Assembly: GCA_903872035.1 (NCBI GenBank)
Contig: CAIQIZ010000010.1
Location: 1 to 35,726, forward strand
Origin: an uncultured bacterium
GTDB lineage: Bacteria > Patescibacteriota > Minisyncoccia > Phycocordibacterales > PALSA-1337
Direction of reading: 5' to 3'
Length of the DNA: 35,726 bases
Below are positions 4,181 through 34,426 of this stretch, in pieces. How positions within the stretch are numbered: position 1 is the first letter of the stretch; each line of letters begins with the position of its first letter. Under the pieces are notes generated by a model, which was not told the DNA's origin, did not search any database, and saw only the letters and a list, made by a program, of their open reading frames with translations. The position numbers and the translations under genes are program-made.

Positions 4181-6361
<2,181 letters not shown>

Positions 6362-9363: not shown

Positions 9364-11553
9364 TCAAGCCTTCTGTTTCTTGACCTTCTTCCCCACCCCG
9401 AACTTCTCCTGTAACTTGAACAATTCATCCCGAATCAGCGCCGCCGATTCGAAGTCGAGCGCCTTAACAGCTTCAGCCATCTGCTCTTCTTTGAGCTTCA
9501 TAAGCTTCTTGGGATTGCTCTGCGCCAAAACTTCATCTATCTTCACCATTTCATTTACAGCCTTATCGTGATCAGAACGCAATTGGTCGGTTATATCATG
9601 AATAGCCTTGATAATGGTCTGCGGCGTAATGCCATGCTCCTTGTTGTAAGCGACTTGAATGGCGCGACGTCGATTAGTTTCCTTAATAGCGCGATCCATT
9701 GAACCCGTAAGGTTGTCAGCATACAGGATGACCCTTCCAGCTGCGTTACGAGCCGCTCTACCAATAGTTTGCACTAGAGCCGTCTCAGAACGAAGGAAGC
9801 CTTCTTTATCGGCATCAAGGATTCCAATAAGCGTCACTTCAGGTAAATCTAATCCTTCACGTAAGAGATTGACGCCAACAACGATATCGTACTTCCCTCT
9901 ACGAAAATCAGTAAGAATTGTAATGCGGTCAATCGTTTTAATATCGCTGTGAAGATATGCCGCCTTAATCTTCTTTTCAATAAGAAATTCAGACAAGTCC
10001 TCGGCCATTTTCTTTGTGAGCGTAGTTGCCAGAACACGCCCACCTTTTTTGATAGTAGCGATTGTTTCATCAATGAAGTCGAATATTTGGCCTCTGTAAT
10101 CACGTCGAGAAGAATCCTTCATCTCGCCGCCGGCCCACAGCGCTCTCGCTGAAGGATTCTTCTCTCCTTCCTTAATAGGCCGTATTTCCACTTCAGGATC
10201 TACCAATCCAGTCGGCCTGATCACTTGTTCAACAATTTGCTTCGAAGTCTCTCGCTCGTAATCGGAAGGCGTCGCCGACGTGTAAACCATGGGTCCGATC
10301 CTCTCCAGGAATTCATTGAATTTCAATGGCCTATTATCTTTAGCCGACGGCAAACGGAAGCCGTGCTCAATCAATGTTTCTTTGCGAGAAGCGTCGCCGG
10401 CATACATTCCATTAAGTTGCGGAATAGTAACATGCGATTCATCAACTATCGTAAGAAAGTCTGGCGAGCCATCCGCCTTGTGCGGGAAATATGCAAGCAA
10501 ACTGTCCGGCGGTTCTCCAGGCATTTTTCCAGAAAAATGGCGTGAGTAATTCTCTATGCCGTTCGTGTATCCGATTTCCCTGATCATTGAGAGATCGTAT
10601 TTGACTCGGCGTTTTAGACGCTCGGATTCAAGCATTTTTCCGGCTTTATCGAGCTCTTTCAGCCGCAATTCCAGTTCAGCTTTGATGGTTTTTATAGCTC
10701 GATCACTTTGTTCATCGTTGGAAATGAAATGTTTGGCTGGAAAGATGAAGATCGTCCTATTATTAGGCGCCGATCGGCTCAAGAAATCATTCGCCTCGCC
10801 GCCGGCCCACGGCGCTCGAGCCGAATGATCTCTTTCGCCTCCGTCGCGAATCGCACGCGACACAGGATCTAACTCAGTGATCTGGCTAATTGTAGAACCT
10901 TCGTATTCAATGCGGTATATCGTTTTCTCATTCACCGGCATTACTTCTAAGGTATTTCCAAGCGCTCTGAATTGGCCGGAATTGATATCGGCGTTGGTTC
11001 TTTCAAAGTGAATATCGATAAGCTTGCGGATAAGTTCGGCTCGAGACAGTTTCATGCCAACCGATAATTTGAGATTTACCTTTTCATATTCTTCCGGACT
11101 ACCCAAACCATAGATACAAGAAACTGAGGCAACAATGATTACATCCTTTCGCGTAAGCAATGCCTGTGTAGAAGCGTGACGTAATCTTTCAATCTCTTCA
11201 TTTATCATCGCTTCCTTCTCGATATAAGTATCCGTGGCCGGCATGTACGCTTCTGGTTGATAATAGTCGTAATACGACACAAAGTAATGCACGGCGTTAT
11301 TTGGAAAGAATTCCCTGTACTCTTGAGCCAGTTGTGCTGCCAAAGTCTTGTTATGAGCGATAACCAGCGTAGGTTTACCGTAATCAGCAATGACATTCGC
11401 CATGGTAAAAGTCTTTCCTGACCCAGTGACTCCAAGCAAAGTCTGACGATCAAATCCCTTAGACAAACCTTCATTCAAAGACAAAATCGCCTTCGGTTGA
11501 TCGCCGGCGGGCTTATATGGAGTGGCTAGCTTGAATGGTGAATTTTTCTGCAT
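9364..11553 (-). CDS. uvrB: Excinuclease ABC subunit B
   Basis: A 729-residue nucleotide-excision-repair helicase-like subunit. Walker A is GVTGSGKTFT. The beta-hairpin YYDYYQPEAY, helicase motifs VDESHVTIPQL, TSATPSDYE and QTIGRAARN, and a C-terminal UvrC-binding UVR motif (about 680-715) are present. I start at ATG 11553 (MQKNSPFK), which has a GAGG sequence 11 nt upstream; the longer frame begins at the transcription start. The family is normally about 660-680 residues. The excess is two in-frame insertions encoded by palindromic elements, at about residues 239-259 (before TIFIFPAKHF) and 463-482 (after EIRPIKEG). Both lie between conserved blocks, so activity is probably kept. Confidence 0.97.
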   Translation of the reverse strand: MQKNSPFKLATPYKPAGDQPKAILSLNEGLSKGFDRQTLLGVTGSGKTFTMANVIADYGKPTLVIAHNKTLAAQLAQEYREFFPNNAVHYFVSYYDYYQPEAYMPATDTYIEKEAMINEEIERLRHASTQALLTRKDVIIVASVSCIYGLGSPEEYEKVNLKLSVGMKLSRAELIRKLIDIHFERTNADINSGQFRALGNTLEVMPVNEKTIYRIEYEGSTISQITELDPVSRAIRDGGERDHSARAPWAGGEANDFLSRSAPNNRTIFIFPAKHFISNDEQSDRAIKTIKAELELRLKELDKAGKMLESERLKRRVKYDLSMIREIGYTNGIENYSRHFSGKMPGEPPDSLLAYFPHKADGSPDFLTIVDESHVTIPQLNGMYAGDASRKETLIEHGFRLPSAKDNRPLKFNEFLERIGPMVYTSATPSDYERETSKQIVEQVIRPTGLVDPEVEIRPIKEGEKNPSARALWAGGEMKDSSRRDYRGQIFDFIDETIATIKKGGRVLATTLTKKMAEDLSEFLIEKKIKAAYLHSDIKTIDRITILTDFRRGKYDIVVGVNLLREGLDLPEVTLIGILDADKEGFLRSETALVQTIGRAARNAAGRVILYADNLTGSMDRAIKETNRRRAIQVAYNKEHGITPQTIIKAIHDITDQLRSDHDKAVNEMVKIDEVLAQSNPKKLMKLKEEQMAEAVKALDFESAALIRDELFKLQEKFGVGKKVKKQKA
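10107..10164 (-). repeat. Palindromic element copy 1, in frame inside uvrB
   Basis: Perfect 15-bp arms: 10107-10121 (starting GAGAAGAATCC) and 10150-10164. The 28-nt core is at 10122-10149. Read on the coding strand the core is AGCGCTGTGGGCCGGCGGCG and encodes ARALWAGGE. The arms are unlike those of the other copies. Confidence 0.9.
10776..10839 (-). repeat. Palindromic element copy 2, in frame inside uvrB
   Basis: Arms 10781-10793 and 10822-10834 match at 12 of 13 positions, and a further GGC/GCC pair outside (10776-10778 and 10837-10839) continues the stem. The 28-nt core at 10794-10821 is AGCGCCGTGGGCCGGCGGCG on the coding strand and encodes ARAPWAGGE. Confidence 0.88.
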
Positions 11554-20649: not shown

Positions 20650-20658
20650 TGTGGATAA
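20650..20658 (-). promoter_or_regulatory. DnaA-box-like nonamer before gap
   Basis: TTATCCACA on the minus strand, a perfect match to the common DnaA box. It is isolated, so an origin is not indicated. A second perfect copy is at 34320-34328. Confidence 0.35.
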
Positions 20659-21549: not shown

Positions 21550-22677
21550 TTAACTCATCGAAATCCTTCCTCGTGAAGCAAAGGCTCTACAGAGTTTTTT
21601 TATGAGTCCTGGCCCTTCATATATCATTCCGGTGATAAGCTGGACCAAATCTGCACCAGCTTCGAATTTTTCTGCAGCCGTTTCCGGAGACAGGACGCCA
21701 CCGACGCCGATGATAGTAAATCGTTTTCCAAAAGCATCACGAGTCTTGTATATGAGATCAGTCGAAAGGTGCGTACACGGCTTGCCGCTCAAACCGCCCT
21801 TGAAAACTTCTGGTGCCTCTTCACGGAATTCCAGAGAGCTGTAATCCTTATTCAGATTTCCTATGACTACCCCATTCAAGCCGAACTCGTCAATGATCTT
21901 TAGAAGGGCCTCGAATTGTGGCCAAGGAATATTTATCGGCATCTTTACATAAAGCGGCTTCTTTGACGGAACCGTTTTTATGGCCGTCAGTAATCGCCTC
22001 AAGAGCTGCGGTTGATTGAAAGCTTCCGCCCCAAAGGCATTTGGACACGAAATATTAAGGGTGTAATAATCACCAACGCTCTCTTCATTTAATCGCTTGA
22101 AAGAATAGAGATAATCTTGTATGCCGGCCTCGATCGGAACTGATTTATCATCATTAGTTCTGGCAATAGAGATACCGACGATAAAATCAGTCCCCGAAAC
22201 AACCTTCGGTTCCCCGCTGGCCCACAGCGCTGAAACCGAAGGTTGTTTCTTCGCCTTATAATCTTTCAATCTCTCGATGATCTTATCCACTCCCTCATTC
22301 CGCAATCCCTTGTTTACAATAATGCTTTTCGATTTCGGCAATCTGGTCAGTCGTGGCTTCGGATTTCCTTCGCAGGCACGCGCAGTCACTGAACCAACTT
22401 CTTCCCCACCAAGCCCGATATGCGGCAAAATAAGCGGTAACTGGCCGTTGTAGTCAAAACCTGCAGAGAGGAGAAATGGCGTACGATATCTGAGACCGTC
22501 AACGGTCTTTCCGATATCCTGACCATGATAATCGTATGCCGCTCCAATGAGAGAACGTGTCAAAGCATGGTTGCTGAAAAAGACACCCTTGGCCGTCATC
22601 TGATCATGCACGTATTCTGGGTCAAATCTGAAAAATATCGGCTTTAATACGGCTTTATATAACATATCTAGTATCAT
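21550..22677 (-). CDS. pyrD: Dihydroorotate dehydrogenase (quinone type, class 2)
   Basis: A 375-residue flavoprotein of pyrimidine synthesis. The N-terminal helical membrane-binding extension with FRFDPEYVHD marks class 2. LSAGFDYNGQLP, GSVTARACEGNPKPRL, NKGLRNEG, NISCPNA, the GGLSGKP block and GVGGV follow. Inserted between KDYK and FIVGISIARTND is an in-frame segment of about 20 residues (about 141-162) encoded by palindromic element copy 3. An alternative start is M5 at 22665. AT-rich -10-like sequence sits directly before the start and is shared with the divergent DedA gene. Confidence 0.95.
   Translation of the reverse strand: MILDMLYKAVLKPIFFRFDPEYVHDQMTAKGVFFSNHALTRSLIGAAYDYHGQDIGKTVDGLRYRTPFLLSAGFDYNGQLPLILPHIGLGGEEVGSVTARACEGNPKPRLTRLPKSKSIIVNKGLRNEGVDKIIERLKDYKAKKQPSVSALWASGEPKVVSGTDFIVGISIARTNDDKSVPIEAGIQDYLYSFKRLNEESVGDYYTLNISCPNAFGAEAFNQPQLLRRLLTAIKTVPSKKPLYVKMPINIPWPQFEALLKIIDEFGLNGVVIGNLNKDYSSLEFREEAPEVFKGGLSGKPCTHLSTDLIYKTRDAFGKRFTIIGVGGVLSPETAAEKFEAGADLVQLITGMIYEGPGLIKKLCRAFASRGRISMS
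22196..22249 (-). repeat. Palindromic element copy 3, in frame inside pyrD
   Basis: Perfect 16-bp arms GAAACAACCTTCGGTT (22196-22211) and 22234-22249. In family register the 28-nt core covers 22209-22236. On the coding strand the core AGCGCTGTGGGCCAGCG matches copy 5 over 17 bases and encodes SALWASGE, in the same frame as the uvrB copies. Confidence 0.9.
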
Positions 22678-29550: not shown

Positions 29551-30885
29551 TCACCTATCTATCTTTCCCAAAAAAGGCAGGCCGATCCTCTGTCTTTTGG
29601 TTTCGCCCCTCAAAAGCTGAGCCCGCCGTTCAGTTTCCTCTCCACGGTCGCCGCGGTGGCTCTGACTGTTCACCGCCTTCCAAGAAGACCCCAAAAATAC
29701 CGTATGTTTTCCGAATTTGGCATCGATAGAATCCACGGCTTGCAAGACTGCCTGGACTTTTTCGATCCTATTGGAGTCACCAAATAGATCGGCAGTTCTC
29801 ACGTCTTCATGATCCAGGTCCATGAGCACTATACCCGTCGCCCGGTAAAGGACTCCTGGCCGATGCACTTGGCTGAATTTTTCTCTGACACTACGGATGA
29901 TCTCTTGCGGCGCCGAGATAGCTTGCGACAACTTTATTTCCAGTCCTGCATACCGAAACTCCTGCGTTTTCAAAAAGAAAGCGAACCGCTTGGTAAACAA
30001 GCTGTGTCGTCTGAGTTTGATGCATGCATTCTCGATATTCTTGGAAAGTTGAGCAAAAACGTACTCACGATCACTGGATGGTGGAGTAAATGTCCTTGTC
30101 TTGGAAATAGAGGCATAATCATTCTTTTCACCGATCACGAGCGGATATACAAATCCCCCATTCAATTCACGATGAATCTCTTGAAAAGGCTTGGAGAAAT
30201 GGAGCTTGACCCATTCTGGTTGTTCCGAAGCGAATTGTAGAGCCGTGACTGCTCCAGAATAGCCACGCGCTTCCCCCAGGAGCTTCTGTATGTACGCCGA
30301 CGTTTGTGACCCAATACCCCAAACTTTCTCCACCGGTAACTTCGCTAGATATAGATGGATGTTATATCCAGGAATGATCGTGAGTCCCGAAGGCTTTCTC
30401 CACTTCGATGCCGCCTTAGCCAGAACCTTATTTACTGAAAGTCCCACTGAAAATGTCATACCCAATTCCATATCCAGCTCATGTTTTATTTTCATGGCCA
30501 TTTGCTCATAAGACATCTTATTCGGCCGCCTCATGCCAGTGAGATCCGCGAAGCATTCATCTATAGAGTATTCTTCGATGGCTTCCGTATAGCGCCGGAC
30601 GATCGCGTACATCCGCTGAGAATACAAGCTGTATGTCTCATAATCTGAGGGCAATATGATGACCTCCGGAATGAGCTTTCTTATCTCCGACAAGCGCATG
30701 GCTCTGGTCACCCCGCGAGCTTTGGCTTCATATGACATCGAGGACGCTATGCCGCGTTCCTTTCCCGTCACCACGCACTTCCCTTTGAGAGCGGGGTTCT
30801 TGGCCACTTCGCACGAAGCAAAAAAGCAGTCACCGTCTACGTGAAGTATGGCGCGTGAAAATGAATGGAGGCTAAGGATGGGCAT
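29551..30885 (-). CDS. dinB: Y-family DNA polymerase IV
   Basis: A 444-residue lesion-bypass polymerase. AILHVDGDCFFASCE gives the first metal-binding aspartate, SYEAKARGV the nucleotide-binding region and EEYSIDECFADL the second catalytic D/E pair. NKVLAKAASKWRKP, VWGIG and the little-finger domain follow. I start at MPILSLHSF (30885). The C-terminal FLGSSWKAV... IGLPFLG region is interrupted by a charged stretch of about 25 residues (RGDRGEETERR, LLRGETK) whose DNA contains a CTTTTG/CAAAAG inverted repeat, possibly another repeat insertion. No LexA-type box is visible upstream. Confidence 0.95.
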   Translation of the reverse strand: MPILSLHSFSRAILHVDGDCFFASCEVAKNPALKGKCVVTGKERGIASSMSYEAKARGVTRAMRLSEIRKLIPEVIILPSDYETYSLYSQRMYAIVRRYTEAIEEYSIDECFADLTGMRRPNKMSYEQMAMKIKHELDMELGMTFSVGLSVNKVLAKAASKWRKPSGLTIIPGYNIHLYLAKLPVEKVWGIGSQTSAYIQKLLGEARGYSGAVTALQFASEQPEWVKLHFSKPFQEIHRELNGGFVYPLVIGEKNDYASISKTRTFTPPSSDREYVFAQLSKNIENACIKLRRHSLFTKRFAFFLKTQEFRYAGLEIKLSQAISAPQEIIRSVREKFSQVHRPGVLYRATGIVLMDLDHEDVRTADLFGDSNRIEKVQAVLQAVDSIDAKFGKHTVFLGSSWKAVNSQSHRGDRGEETERRAQLLRGETKRQRIGLPFLGKIDR

Positions 30886-30922
30886 GGTCTTGGGCGTAGT
30901 TTGACAATTCAGTTGTAGCGTT

Positions 30923-31584: not shown

Positions 31585-31974
31585 TTACTCAGCAACTTCC
31601 GGCTTAAAATCCACCTGATGTTCCGGTATACCCAATGACAAACCATACTTCTTTGCCTCGTCGTACTGTTCTTTACTAGTCCTGTCTATGAAGAATACTT
31701 TGCCTTTGAAGATTATGTAATGATTCTTGTCATTCTTGTAATCAGCATACCAACTGCCGTTATGATCGCTAACAATTGACGCGCTTAAATCCTCAGCAAC
31801 TTGAGCCGCCATATTTTCAGGGATCTCGACTTTATGTAACGTCCACTGCTTGAGCCACGGTGTATGGTGTTCATCTACAACCTTTTCAACCTTAGTAGAA
31901 ATAATTTTCACCTTCTTCAATACAGAAGCGTCTTCAAGAGACTCTTCTATGATTGTGCCTTTGTAATTATTCAT
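31585..31974 (-). CDS. Hypothetical protein, 129 aa
   Basis: A soluble mixed alpha/beta-looking protein with many charged residues and no signal peptide. DLSASIVSDHNGSWYADYKNDKNHY is an aromatic, strand-like middle. I recognise the style from other small CPR proteins but no functional family. It follows the VOC gene by 15 bp and is probably co-transcribed with it. Confidence 0.7.
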   Translation of the reverse strand: MNNYKGTIIEESLEDASVLKKVKIISTKVEKVVDEHHTPWLKQWTLHKVEIPENMAAQVAEDLSASIVSDHNGSWYADYKNDKNHYIIFKGKVFFIDRTSKEQYDEAKKYGLSLGIPEHQVDFKPEVAE

Positions 31975-31989
31975 GGATTTTAATAGCTA

Positions 31990-32358
31990 CTACTCCGCCC
32001 CCGCGGTACCATCATTCCTCTTGTGAAGATTGAACTTGTTGCCATCGGGGTCGGCGATCGTGGCTCCATGGCAGACCGGTGTTTCCCAAACTTCATCCAG
32101 TACCTTCACACCTTTCTTCTTGAGCTCATCGACCGATTTCTTTATGTCATCCACAGCAAACGCCACTCCGGAGCATTTGCCGACCATATCTTTATCGAAT
32201 GTCCCTATATCGAACGTCACATTACCGGCATCGAATTCAGCCCACGAATCCCCTGGTTCGCCATCAAGCTTCAAACCGAGGGTATTCTGGTAAAAATCTA
32301 TGCTCTTTTTAAGATCGGAAACATAATACATAACATAATCTACGCCTTTAATTTTCAT
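31990..32358 (-). CDS. VOC (glyoxalase/bleomycin-resistance) superfamily protein
   Basis: A 122-residue two-module beta-alpha-beta-beta-beta protein: VDYVMYYVSDLKKSIDFYQNTLGLKL and GVAFAVDDIKKSVDELKKKGVKV, ending with IADPDGNKFNLHKRN. Metal-binding positions look incomplete, so catalytic glyoxalase I activity is uncertain. The substrate is unknown. Confidence 0.88.
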   Translation of the reverse strand: MKIKGVDYVMYYVSDLKKSIDFYQNTLGLKLDGEPGDSWAEFDAGNVTFDIGTFDKDMVGKCSGVAFAVDDIKKSVDELKKKGVKVLDEVWETPVCHGATIADPDGNKFNLHKRNDGTAGAE

Positions 32359-32409: not shown

Positions 32410-33255
32410 TTATTGTTTCAATCTCTTTTTAAGATCTCCTCCTTCCAGGTAATTGTCACTCGTACTGACCGGTCTACCAATCTCCTTCTCTGTCTCTTTA
32501 CGGGCATTGCCAGCCACTCGACCTCCTCTATTGGCGACTTTTCTATTTTCAGGCATATCAACCGGTTTCTCCTTGATTGAAATCTCTGTTGTTACTTTCT
32601 CACCGAGCATAGTAAAAATAAGCTCCAATTCATCCATATGGTCACGCAGATTTTGATTCTTCTTCTGTAATCCCTTATATTTCTTGTATTCTGCTGGCGT
32701 CATATCGAATGTCGCTTGAGAAATTTCTGCTGTAAGAATAGCAAAATCACTTTCCCGTTTGACCCCTCGTTCCTTCCATTCATCTGTTAAGTTCTGTCTG
32801 ATAGCAACGCCTCGCAATCTCTTATCGATCCAGCTCTTGGAATATCCCTTACGTTCATATATCACCTTCATCCTTTCTTGCGTCAATTCAGGGTTCTCTA
32901 TCTCCTGGATCCTTTCATAACCAACACGTGCCAACCAAAGCTTGAACGGTTCGGCATTCGGAGATGGAATTGACTGAATAATACGAAACATTGTTTCAGT
33001 ATCCGCACAATCTGTATCATACTCTTTACCATCGGAAGAACGCATCTTCAGTTGTACGATTTTTTCGTACAACTGACTTCCCTCATCCTTAAGATTTATC
33101 TTTAAATCTGACCAATAACGACGCGGGATCGTGCTTTCAGTAAGAGCAGCCACAACATCAACCACGGAAAAATACCACTTCTCTTCTTTAGAATCCCAAT
33201 GTCTTCGTATATTTCTGCCTTCAAAGACAGCTAAATGTTTTTCTACGTTTTCCAT
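32410..33255 (-). CDS. BRO-N domain protein (prophage antirepressor / DinD-like)
   Basis: A 281-residue protein with an N-terminal BRO-N domain (about 8-115: WYFSVVDVVAALTES, RYWSDLK, DTETMFRIIQSIPSPNAEPFKLWLARVGYERIQE), then a helical DNA-damage-inducible-D-like part (about 120-215) with KGYSKSWIDKRLRGVAIRQNLTDEWKERG, and a disordered basic tail. Gene is 44 bp downstream of lexA on the same strand, which supports a role in the damage response or in phage-type derepression. No other phage gene is nearby. Confidence 0.85.
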   Translation of the reverse strand: MENVEKHLAVFEGRNIRRHWDSKEEKWYFSVVDVVAALTESTIPRRYWSDLKINLKDEGSQLYEKIVQLKMRSSDGKEYDTDCADTETMFRIIQSIPSPNAEPFKLWLARVGYERIQEIENPELTQERMKVIYERKGYSKSWIDKRLRGVAIRQNLTDEWKERGVKRESDFAILTAEISQATFDMTPAEYKKYKGLQKKNQNLRDHMDELELIFTMLGEKVTTEISIKEKPVDMPENRKVANRGGRVAGNARKETEKEIGRPVSTSDNYLEGGDLKKRLKQ

Positions 33256-33298: not shown

Positions 33299-33868
33299 TC
33301 AATATTTCCTAACCACCCCCTTCACCACCGCTGCTACCTTGAGATCATTCTCCGGATAAATAGGCTTGAAATCTTTGTTAGCTGGTTCCAACCAGACCTT
33401 GCCGTCAGTCTTGCGGAAATATTTCATGGTCCAACCACCATCGACCTCGGCAATGACGATCTCACCTATTTTCGGTTCACGCGAAATACGCTCGGCGATA
33501 ACAAGATCACCTTCTTGGATACCAGCGTCGATCATTGACTCCCCTTTTACTTCCAGTAAATACGTCGCTTCTTTGTTCTCTATCAAGTAATCGTCGAGAC
33601 TCATAGTATCTACCAACTCCTCTTCGGCTGCTGTCGGAAAACCAGCTTCGACTAAGCCGAGCATCGGCACTTCGCCGAACAGCTTATTCGGCACCAAGCG
33701 GCCTGATGAATCCTTTTCTAACATTCCTTCACCTACCAGCTTGTTGACCAGCTTATAGACTGCATTCTTTGACTTGAATCCCAATAGCTTCATTATCTCT
33801 GCATAAGACGGCATGCGCTTGGTCCGCTTGTAGAATGAGATTATTTTGTTTTTATATGAGTCAATCAT
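33299..33868 (-). CDS. lexA: LexA-type SOS repressor
   Basis: A 189-residue repressor-peptidase. The N-terminal winged helix (about 1-65) reads KRTKRMPSYAEIMKLLGFKSKNAVYKLVNKL. The C-terminal S24 peptidase domain has the self-cleavage site A75-G76 in VEAGFP, nucleophile S111 in KGESM and general base K149 in WTMKYF. I start at MIDSYKNK (33868); TAATAA ends 5 nt before it. An upstream GTG inside palindromic element copy 4 is in frame and could add 19 residues, but that start is unlikely. It probably shares the LexA-box promoter at 34281-34310 with the 66-aa gene. Confidence 0.93.
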   Translation of the reverse strand: MIDSYKNKIISFYKRTKRMPSYAEIMKLLGFKSKNAVYKLVNKLVGEGMLEKDSSGRLVPNKLFGEVPMLGLVEAGFPTAAEEELVDTMSLDDYLIENKEATYLLEVKGESMIDAGIQEGDLVIAERISREPKIGEIVIAEVDGGWTMKYFRKTDGKVWLEPANKDFKPIYPENDLKVAAVVKGVVRKY

Positions 33869-33878
33869 TTTAATTATT

Positions 33879-33944
33879 AGAGTGTGGGAATGTTCCGGTT
33901 CGCCGCCGGCCCACGTCGCTCTCACCGGAACATTCCCACACTCT
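33879..33944 (-). repeat. Palindromic element copy 4, immediately upstream of lexA
   Basis: The best-preserved copy: perfect 21-bp arms at 33879-33899 (AGAGTGTGGGAATGTTCCGG...) and 33924-33944. In family register the core is 33898-33925 and reads AGCGACGTGGGCCGGCGGCG on the minus strand. It ends 10 bp before the lexA start codon, and its TGGGCC core is open in frame with lexA (ATWAGGE). Confidence 0.92.
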
Positions 33945-33963
33945 GCCTTAAACTGGCAATCAA

Positions 33964-33993
33964 GAGTTAAGAACCGGGCAGAATTCTTAACTC
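33964..33993 (-). terminator. Hairpin between the 66-aa gene and lexA
   Basis: GAGTTAAGAA (33964-33973) and TTCTTAACTC (33984-33993), a perfect 10-bp stem with a 10-nt loop. Only a poor T-run follows on the minus strand, so it may attenuate rather than stop transcription into lexA. Confidence 0.45.
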
Positions 33994-34015
33994 ATGGCTG
34001 CCAGCCTCCGCCGAC

Positions 34016-34222
34016 TTAGAAAAGAAATGCTGAAGCAAAGCTCGCCACAGTACCGAACCAATTCGATCGCCTTGGGACCAGCCGAGCAAGCTCAGCCGTC
34101 AGAGATCTGTGTCGAAGCGCTTCCCGCCTGTAGGAAACTCCCCTAATGATCCGAAGGTCAATCTCTCGATTGAGTCTGTCGATCTCTGCACGAATGGCTC
34201 TGATGGTTTGATGCTTGCTCAT
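34016..34222 (-). CDS. Small basic helical protein, 66 aa, under LexA-type control
   Basis: MSKHQTIRAIRAEIDRLN opens a 66-residue protein that is mostly basic, with two helix-forming segments (about 4-28 and 30-50) and a hydrophobic end (WFGTVASFASAFLF). It has no signal peptide; the hydrophobic end may be a tail anchor. No family is recognised. The frame extends upstream to 34303 but that would overlap the promoter, so I start at 34222. It is the first gene of a probable SOS operon with lexA, so it may be a damage-induced inhibitor or small effector, which is inference from regulation alone. Confidence 0.65.
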   Translation of the reverse strand: MSKHQTIRAIRAEIDRLNREIDLRIIRGVSYRREALRHRSLTAELARLVPRRSNWFGTVASFASAFLF

Positions 34223-34280: not shown

Positions 34281-34310
34281 AGTATAGGTGAACGAGTGTT
34301 CACCTGTCAA
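34281..34310 (-). promoter_or_regulatory. SOS promoter: LexA box filling the spacer
   Basis: On the minus strand TTGACA (34310-34305), 18 bp, TATACT (34286-34281). The spacer is exactly the perfect palindrome GGTGAACACTCGTTCACC (34304-34287), which contains GAAC-N4-GTTC, the Gram-positive-type LexA box. A bound repressor would block both promoter elements. Confidence 0.8.
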
Positions 34311-34319
34311 TGGAGTACC

Positions 34320-34328
34320 TGTGGATAA
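34320..34328 (-). promoter_or_regulatory. DnaA-box-like nonamer upstream of the SOS promoter
   Basis: TTATCCACA on the minus strand, a perfect match to the common DnaA box, 10 bp upstream of the TTGACA. It shares TTATCCACA with the copy before gap. Confidence 0.35.
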
Positions 34329-34356: not shown

Positions 34357-34426
34357 GAAGGCAAAAGAAATCTTTTCGTTTGAGCGCTGTGGGCCAGCGA
34401 CAAACAGAAAGATTTCTGGAGCCTTC
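34357..34426 (+). repeat. Palindromic element copy 5, after rmuC
   Basis: Arms 34366-34382 (AGAAATCTTTTCGTTTG) and 34401-34417 pair at 15 of 17 positions. An outer GAAGGC/GCCTTC pair (34357-34362 and 34421-34426) extends the stem. The core at 34378-34405 reads AGCGCTGTGGGCCAGCG on the + strand, so it is antisense to rmuC. It lies 7 bp after the rmuC stop. Confidence 0.88.

Follow-up and report, generated by a model that had tools for sequence, protein, structure and literature searches.

A probable LexA-autoregulated SOS operon in a Paceibacteria (Patescibacteria) genome, with a small gene between promoter and lexA

Introduction

In Bacillus, LexA operators take the form GAAC-N4-GTTC (PMC4234289), and the genes adjoining lexA in Gram-positives encode division inhibitors, which for SosA was argued before it was proven (PMC6851548). 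In E. coli, DnaA, whose box follows the consensus TTA/TTNCACA, represses uvrB, recN and dinJ together with LexA (PMC6015884).

Here we describe a locus within a 35,726-nucleotide stretch of DNA (contig CAIQIZ010000010.1; hereafter the window) that, judging from its sequence, very probably represents a LexA-autoregulated SOS operon of a Paceibacteria (Patescibacteria) genome; this estimate covers the autoregulated operon, while the function of its small protein and the involvement of DnaA are weighed separately below. The SOS network of the Patescibacteria was reportedly the subject of a 2017 study by Sanchez-Osuna, Barbe and Erill; the LexA group is presumably shared with the present locus, and the motif possibly so. 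As in the LexA autoregulation of Bacillus subtilis and other Gram-positives, the operator core is GAAC-N4-GTTC (PMC4234289) and LexA has an S24 domain, and, again as in Gram-positives, a small putative SOS gene adjoins lexA (PMC6851548). The differences from Gram-positives lie in the outer bases of the box (here RGTGAAC...GTTCACY), in the single exact box per genome and in the gene arrangement: here the small gene precedes lexA and both point the same way, whereas theirs are divergent, and the small proteins are unrelated.

Results

The original prediction placed TTGACA, a box with GAAC-N4-GTTC and TATACT at this locus, and exactly these were found on the minus strand at 34310-34281. The full minus-strand order is TTATCCACA, 9 bp, TTGACA, GGTGAACACTCGTTCACC, TATACT, a 68-aa ORF, lexA and a BRO-N gene, which bears out the predicted succession of promoter, small gene, lexA and BRO-N gene. 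The promoter region comprises the following elements:

34320..34328, minus strand: match to the DnaA-box consensus, TTATCCACA, 9 bp 5' of the -35 hexamer (from sequence)
34305..34310, minus strand: -35 hexamer TTGACA (from sequence and promoter score)
34287..34304, minus strand: putative LexA operator GGTGAACACTCGTTCACC, occupying exactly the 18-bp spacer between the -35 and -10 hexamers
34281..34286, minus strand: -10 hexamer TATACT (from sequence and promoter score)

The promoter, TTGACA-18-TATACT, scored 11/12. It had been called perfect, but the -10 hexamer is TATACT and not TATAAT. Likewise, the operator had been described as a perfect 18-bp palindrome and is actually a 7-4-7 inverted repeat, GGTGAAC-N4-GTTCACC, with 14 of 18 columns symmetric. 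The promoter of the lexA operon thereby contains the Gram-positive-type core GAAC-N4-GTTC, that of the Bacillus operator (PMC4234289), as had been recognized; the operator type is already known from Gram-positives and we claim nothing new for the box. The TTATCCACA element and a link to a Y-family polymerase, both treated below, had been overlooked, while the core observation stands.

A LexA dimer bound to GGTGAAC-N4-GTTCACC between the -35 and -10 hexamers would physically keep RNA polymerase off the promoter. Upon DNA damage, activated RecA would bring about LexA self-cleavage and the promoter would open, allowing the small protein and new LexA to be made, possibly along with the products of read-through genes. 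As the first product, and the only or principal one, the small protein would be the likely effector. In several relatives (L020, L024, L031, L033 and others) the small gene has its ATG just 12 nt past the box, approximately at the expected transcription start, which suggests that its mRNA is leaderless in these genomes.

In the 1.05-Mb source genome, about 0.003 exact boxes are expected and one was found. Across 119 genomes the exact box was present in 42, while the reversed pattern, used as a control, matched once, and 40 of the 42 box-bearing genomes carry a single exact copy. We then inspected 30 lexA loci, from the source genome and 29 others. In 28 of them the exact box sits 5' of lexA at the same promoter position; one of the remaining two has a box with one substitution (L027) and the other ends at a contig edge (L048). 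The relatives with names are Candidatus Taylorbacteria and further Paceibacterota / Patescibacteria. Box and promoter are kept while the surrounding sequence diverges, and another family has A..T as the outer pair of the box (AGTGAAC-N4-GTTCACT). This comparison of loci supports the predicted autoregulation of lexA from the distal promoter.

In the source genome the bare core GAAC-N4-GTTC is about as frequent as expected by chance (21 sites versus 22 control sites), for which reason it was rejected as a regulon marker. This frequency also fits the notion that the promoter-like and palindromic sequence is a functionless product of chance, which we consider hardly conceivable for a box kept in dozens of genomes with free variation confined to its four central bases. 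Two boxes of the source genome with two mismatches were rejected as further operators because they lie inside ORFs; the GAAC-N4-GTTC-type sites inspected are all within ORFs except for the lexA-promoter site and L005.

With just one exact box in 40 of 42 genomes, LexA seems to repress mainly its own operon, sites with up to two mismatches being considered. The box had been expected to recur before repair genes. A scan of the source genome to two mismatches did not find several boxes before repair genes, the lexA-promoter box being the sole exact copy. In other genomes, boxes do precede lexA-Y-polymerase operons; in genome G108 a second box precedes a UmuD-like/Y-family polymerase pair. A lack of other genomic copies, which the prediction would have counted against itself, is a poor test, as a single exact box is typical.

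The genes and elements downstream of the promoter are as follows:

34016..34222, minus strand: 68-aa basic helical-hairpin protein whose C-terminal end is hydrophobic, encoded by the operon's first gene (from alignments, a structure model and co-occurrence with lexA)
33954..34003, minus strand: hairpin in the stretch separating the small gene from lexA; the nearest relative shares its core
33879..33944, minus strand: copy of a palindromic element specific to this genome, likewise located between small gene and lexA; the nearest relative lacks it
33299..33868, minus strand: lexA, 189 aa (from the family model, the Ala-Gly cleavage site and the Ser/Lys dyad)
32410..33255, minus strand: BRO-N, partly DinD-like gene, 43 bp past lexA, with its own promoter-like sequence
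31990..32358, minus strand: glyoxalase-fold protein, co-transcription possible
31585..31974, minus strand: 129-aa ORF with no assigned family, co-transcription possible
29551..30894, minus strand: Y-family DNA polymerase, adjoining lexA in many relatives and here separated from the operon

The assignment of the lexA product as LexA was confirmed by a score of 121.7 bits against TIGR00498, above the curated cut-off of 110.95. Its segments VEAGFP, GESM and TMKYFRK align with solved LexA structures and keep the Ala-Gly cleavage site and the Ser/Lys catalytic dyad. The DNA-binding domain matched PF01726 weakly (19.4 bits versus a cut-off of 23.7), and the same region aligns with solved LexA; RecA is also encoded in the source genome. 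The weak domain match, together with the fact that LexA binding to the box is deduced from sequence, would be consistent with another dimeric regulator binding the box and controlling the lexA operon in place of the encoded LexA. We regard this as very improbable in view of the TIGR00498 score, the agreement of the box core with the Bacillus LexA operator (PMC4234289), the position of the second G108 box and the loss of the GGTGAAC box where the LexA type changes (f121).

The small gene had been given as 66 aa and counted, together with the BRO-N gene, as one of two uncharacterized SOS co-genes. Counted from its ATG (34222-34016), it encodes 68 aa, and it alone of the two is conserved beside lexA, lying between promoter and lexA in 28 of the 30 loci inspected. 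In a fixed set of 384 genomes of the class, lexA of this type is found in 54 and the small gene in 28; both occur in 26 genomes and are adjacent in 26/26 (Fisher p ~4e-23, with genomes treated as unrelated by phylogeny). The two exceptions (G220 and G240) have no canonical lexA; in them the small gene is oriented divergently from another repressor, which carries S24 and LexA-like DNA-binding domains. At these loci (L202 2500-3549 and L203 346-1394) the GGTGAAC box is gone and TTATCCACA is kept, and both intergenic regions share an imperfect palindrome, TTTAGAAAACTAGA, which may serve as the operator of the other S24/LexA-like repressor. Since the small gene sits there beside another LexA-type repressor, we infer that it follows LexA-type control across the change of repressor. 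Being nearly always next to a LexA-type gene, it is probably a dedicated part of the DNA-damage response and its product probably a dedicated SOS effector.

All members of the small family have a net charge of +6 to +10, and the last residue is F in 21 of 28. In the AlphaFold2 model, residues 3-27 and 32-48 form a two-helix hairpin predicted with confidence, and a low-confidence tail follows. Searches of Pfam, NCBIfam, PHROGs, PDB sequences and PDB folds returned no significant match; the best, insignificant ones were to the nucleic-acid-binding hairpins of bS20 (E 0.3) and SerRS (E ~2.6), and the resemblance to either was put down to chance. We also discarded the idea that the small gene or the box is of viral origin, as no relative was found in IMG/VR.

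By analogy with the unrelated division inhibitors encoded next to lexA in Gram-positives, the small protein may be a checkpoint protein that stops division or replication, an idea in which our confidence falls slightly below even. It resembles SosA, YneA, DivS and ChiZ in being a small protein encoded beside lexA under LexA control, which at this locus is deduced from the box. It differs from them in being a basic helical hairpin that ends in a hydrophobic tail: it matched no known SOS division inhibitor family in Pfam or NCBIfam, no sequence relation to the four was found, and neither family searches nor the model revealed transmembrane or LysM parts as in YneA/SosA-type inhibitors.

The main rival to a checkpoint role is that of a nucleic-acid- or replisome-binding helper in translesion synthesis or recombination, in which the basic hairpin would bind nucleic acid, RecA or the sliding clamp, lexA and the Y-family polymerase would form the SOS core, and the conserved hydrophobic C-terminal end would be a short docking motif. 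The positive charge of all members, the frequent terminal F, the helical hairpin with its bS20 and SerRS matches and the Y-family polymerase adjoining lexA in many genomes are in line with such a helper, whereas the bS20 and SerRS matches are at chance level and many genomes have lexA and the polymerase without the small gene. We rate the helper role, docking motif included, as possible and clearly short of an even prospect. Among the sampled genomes, 28 have lexA without the small gene; 18 of these carry a Y-family polymerase near lexA, and in 23 a GAAC-N4-GTTC-type box (at most two mismatches to GTGAAC-N4-GTTCAC) lies upstream. Some genomes with the small gene also have the polymerase after lexA. 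In the window, the BRO-N gene, the glyoxalase gene, the 129-aa ORF and an opposite-strand ORF lie between the two.

The place of the BRO-N gene in the SOS programme is doubtful. Its product matches Bro-N PF02498 and is like DinD (PRK11525, NF008573) in its BRO-N domain and in a partial C-terminal similarity, but falls far under the NF008573 cut-off (21.6 versus 242 bits). The gene was found at none of the lexA loci of the relatives examined, the nearest relative included, and a good promoter-like sequence of its own, TTGAAA-16-TATAAT, lies over the lexA stop. Its predicted standing as a conserved SOS co-gene was not borne out.

A conserved attenuator before lexA was also considered and rejected, as one of the two hairpins there is a genome-specific repeat copy absent from the nearest relative; an Rfam search of the hairpin region gave no real match. 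The repeat consists of a conserved apex (GAGCGCTGTGGGCCAGCG and flanks) and a long outer stem that varies between copies and yet pairs with itself. The source genome contains 35 copies, with cores in the window at 10128-10145, 10800-10817, 22215-22232, 33904-33921 and 34382-34399, and at 4440-4457 with two mismatches. Neither 10 relatives nor the reversed control yielded any, the copies near lexA had no Rfam match, and no copy was found in IMG/VR. Within uvrB (window 9364-11553), the copy at 10800 inserts ~23 residues in frame, as seen by comparison with the UvrB of congeners. The copy at 10128 falls in a second insertion-tolerant UvrB loop, where the relative G017 has a different insertion (PAKAGIQ...LDSRFRGND). 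The element inserted in UvrB is comparable in type to the palindromic elements of Rickettsia (PMC10969869).

Upstream of the operator, the exact TTATCCACA element was found in 42 of 60 distinct LexA-box promoters, where ~0.01 would be expected, and 36 of the 42 copies lie at -22 to -24 from the box. The source genome has 18 copies, mostly intergenic. Searching 40 genomes for TTATCCACA-N24-40-TATAAT gave at least 89 matches versus 3 in the control; among the matches listed, 65 of 89 have a spacer of 29-33, with a peak at 31-33. The element is not SOS-specific and precedes many non-SOS promoters; it is seen at the preferred distance 5' of the -10 hexamer, for example, in L099, L100, L101, L103 and L109 and at window position 20650.

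TTATCCACA matches the consensus 9-mer of the DnaA box, and DnaA is encoded in the source genome. The site beside the -35 hexamer probably adds a second input to the promoter, for which DnaA is the obvious candidate, put forward here tentatively. As in E. coli uvrB, recN and dinJ, a DnaA box would lie near a LexA box in an SOS promoter (PMC6015884); unlike in E. coli, the DnaA-like box is near-fixed just 5' of the -35 hexamer of the lexA operon in most of the examined genomes of this lineage, and it is also present in many non-SOS promoters. We give an even chance to the alternative that TTATCCACA serves promoters in general as an upstream element or is bound by some other lineage-wide regulator. 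Its preferred distance before TATAAT in so many promoters, its presence before genes without an evident link to replication and the lack of any TTATCCACA cluster seen upstream of dnaA all point that way, against which stand the fit to the E. coli DnaA-box consensus, the presence of DnaA in the genome and the known repression of SOS genes by E. coli DnaA together with LexA (PMC6015884). A broader proposal, which we consider rather unlikely, is that DnaA of this lineage is a widespread promoter-bound regulator that works from a near-fixed position just 5' of the -35 hexamer and that the SOS operon is a minimal two-input switch, with LexA in the spacer, DnaA outside it and a small effector not recognized before as the main output. 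If this were true, the damage response and replication initiation would be wired together at one promoter.

Discussion

In the literature searched, we found no description of the small family, of its linkage to two LexA types or of the DnaA-box-like element, the 2017 study of the Patescibacteria SOS network lying outside that search. As that study exists and the box type is known, novelty is limited to the small protein and the DnaA-box-like element.

Patescibacteria are tiny, mostly uncultured bacteria, and their SOS response appears to be reduced to one LexA-controlled operon, so that its effectors may be named by position. A 68-aa family without a database entry thereby emerges as a candidate SOS effector. 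With TTATCCACA occurring at a preferred place before many promoters, the part played by DnaA, or by another general regulator, in the transcription of these bacteria can be tested directly.
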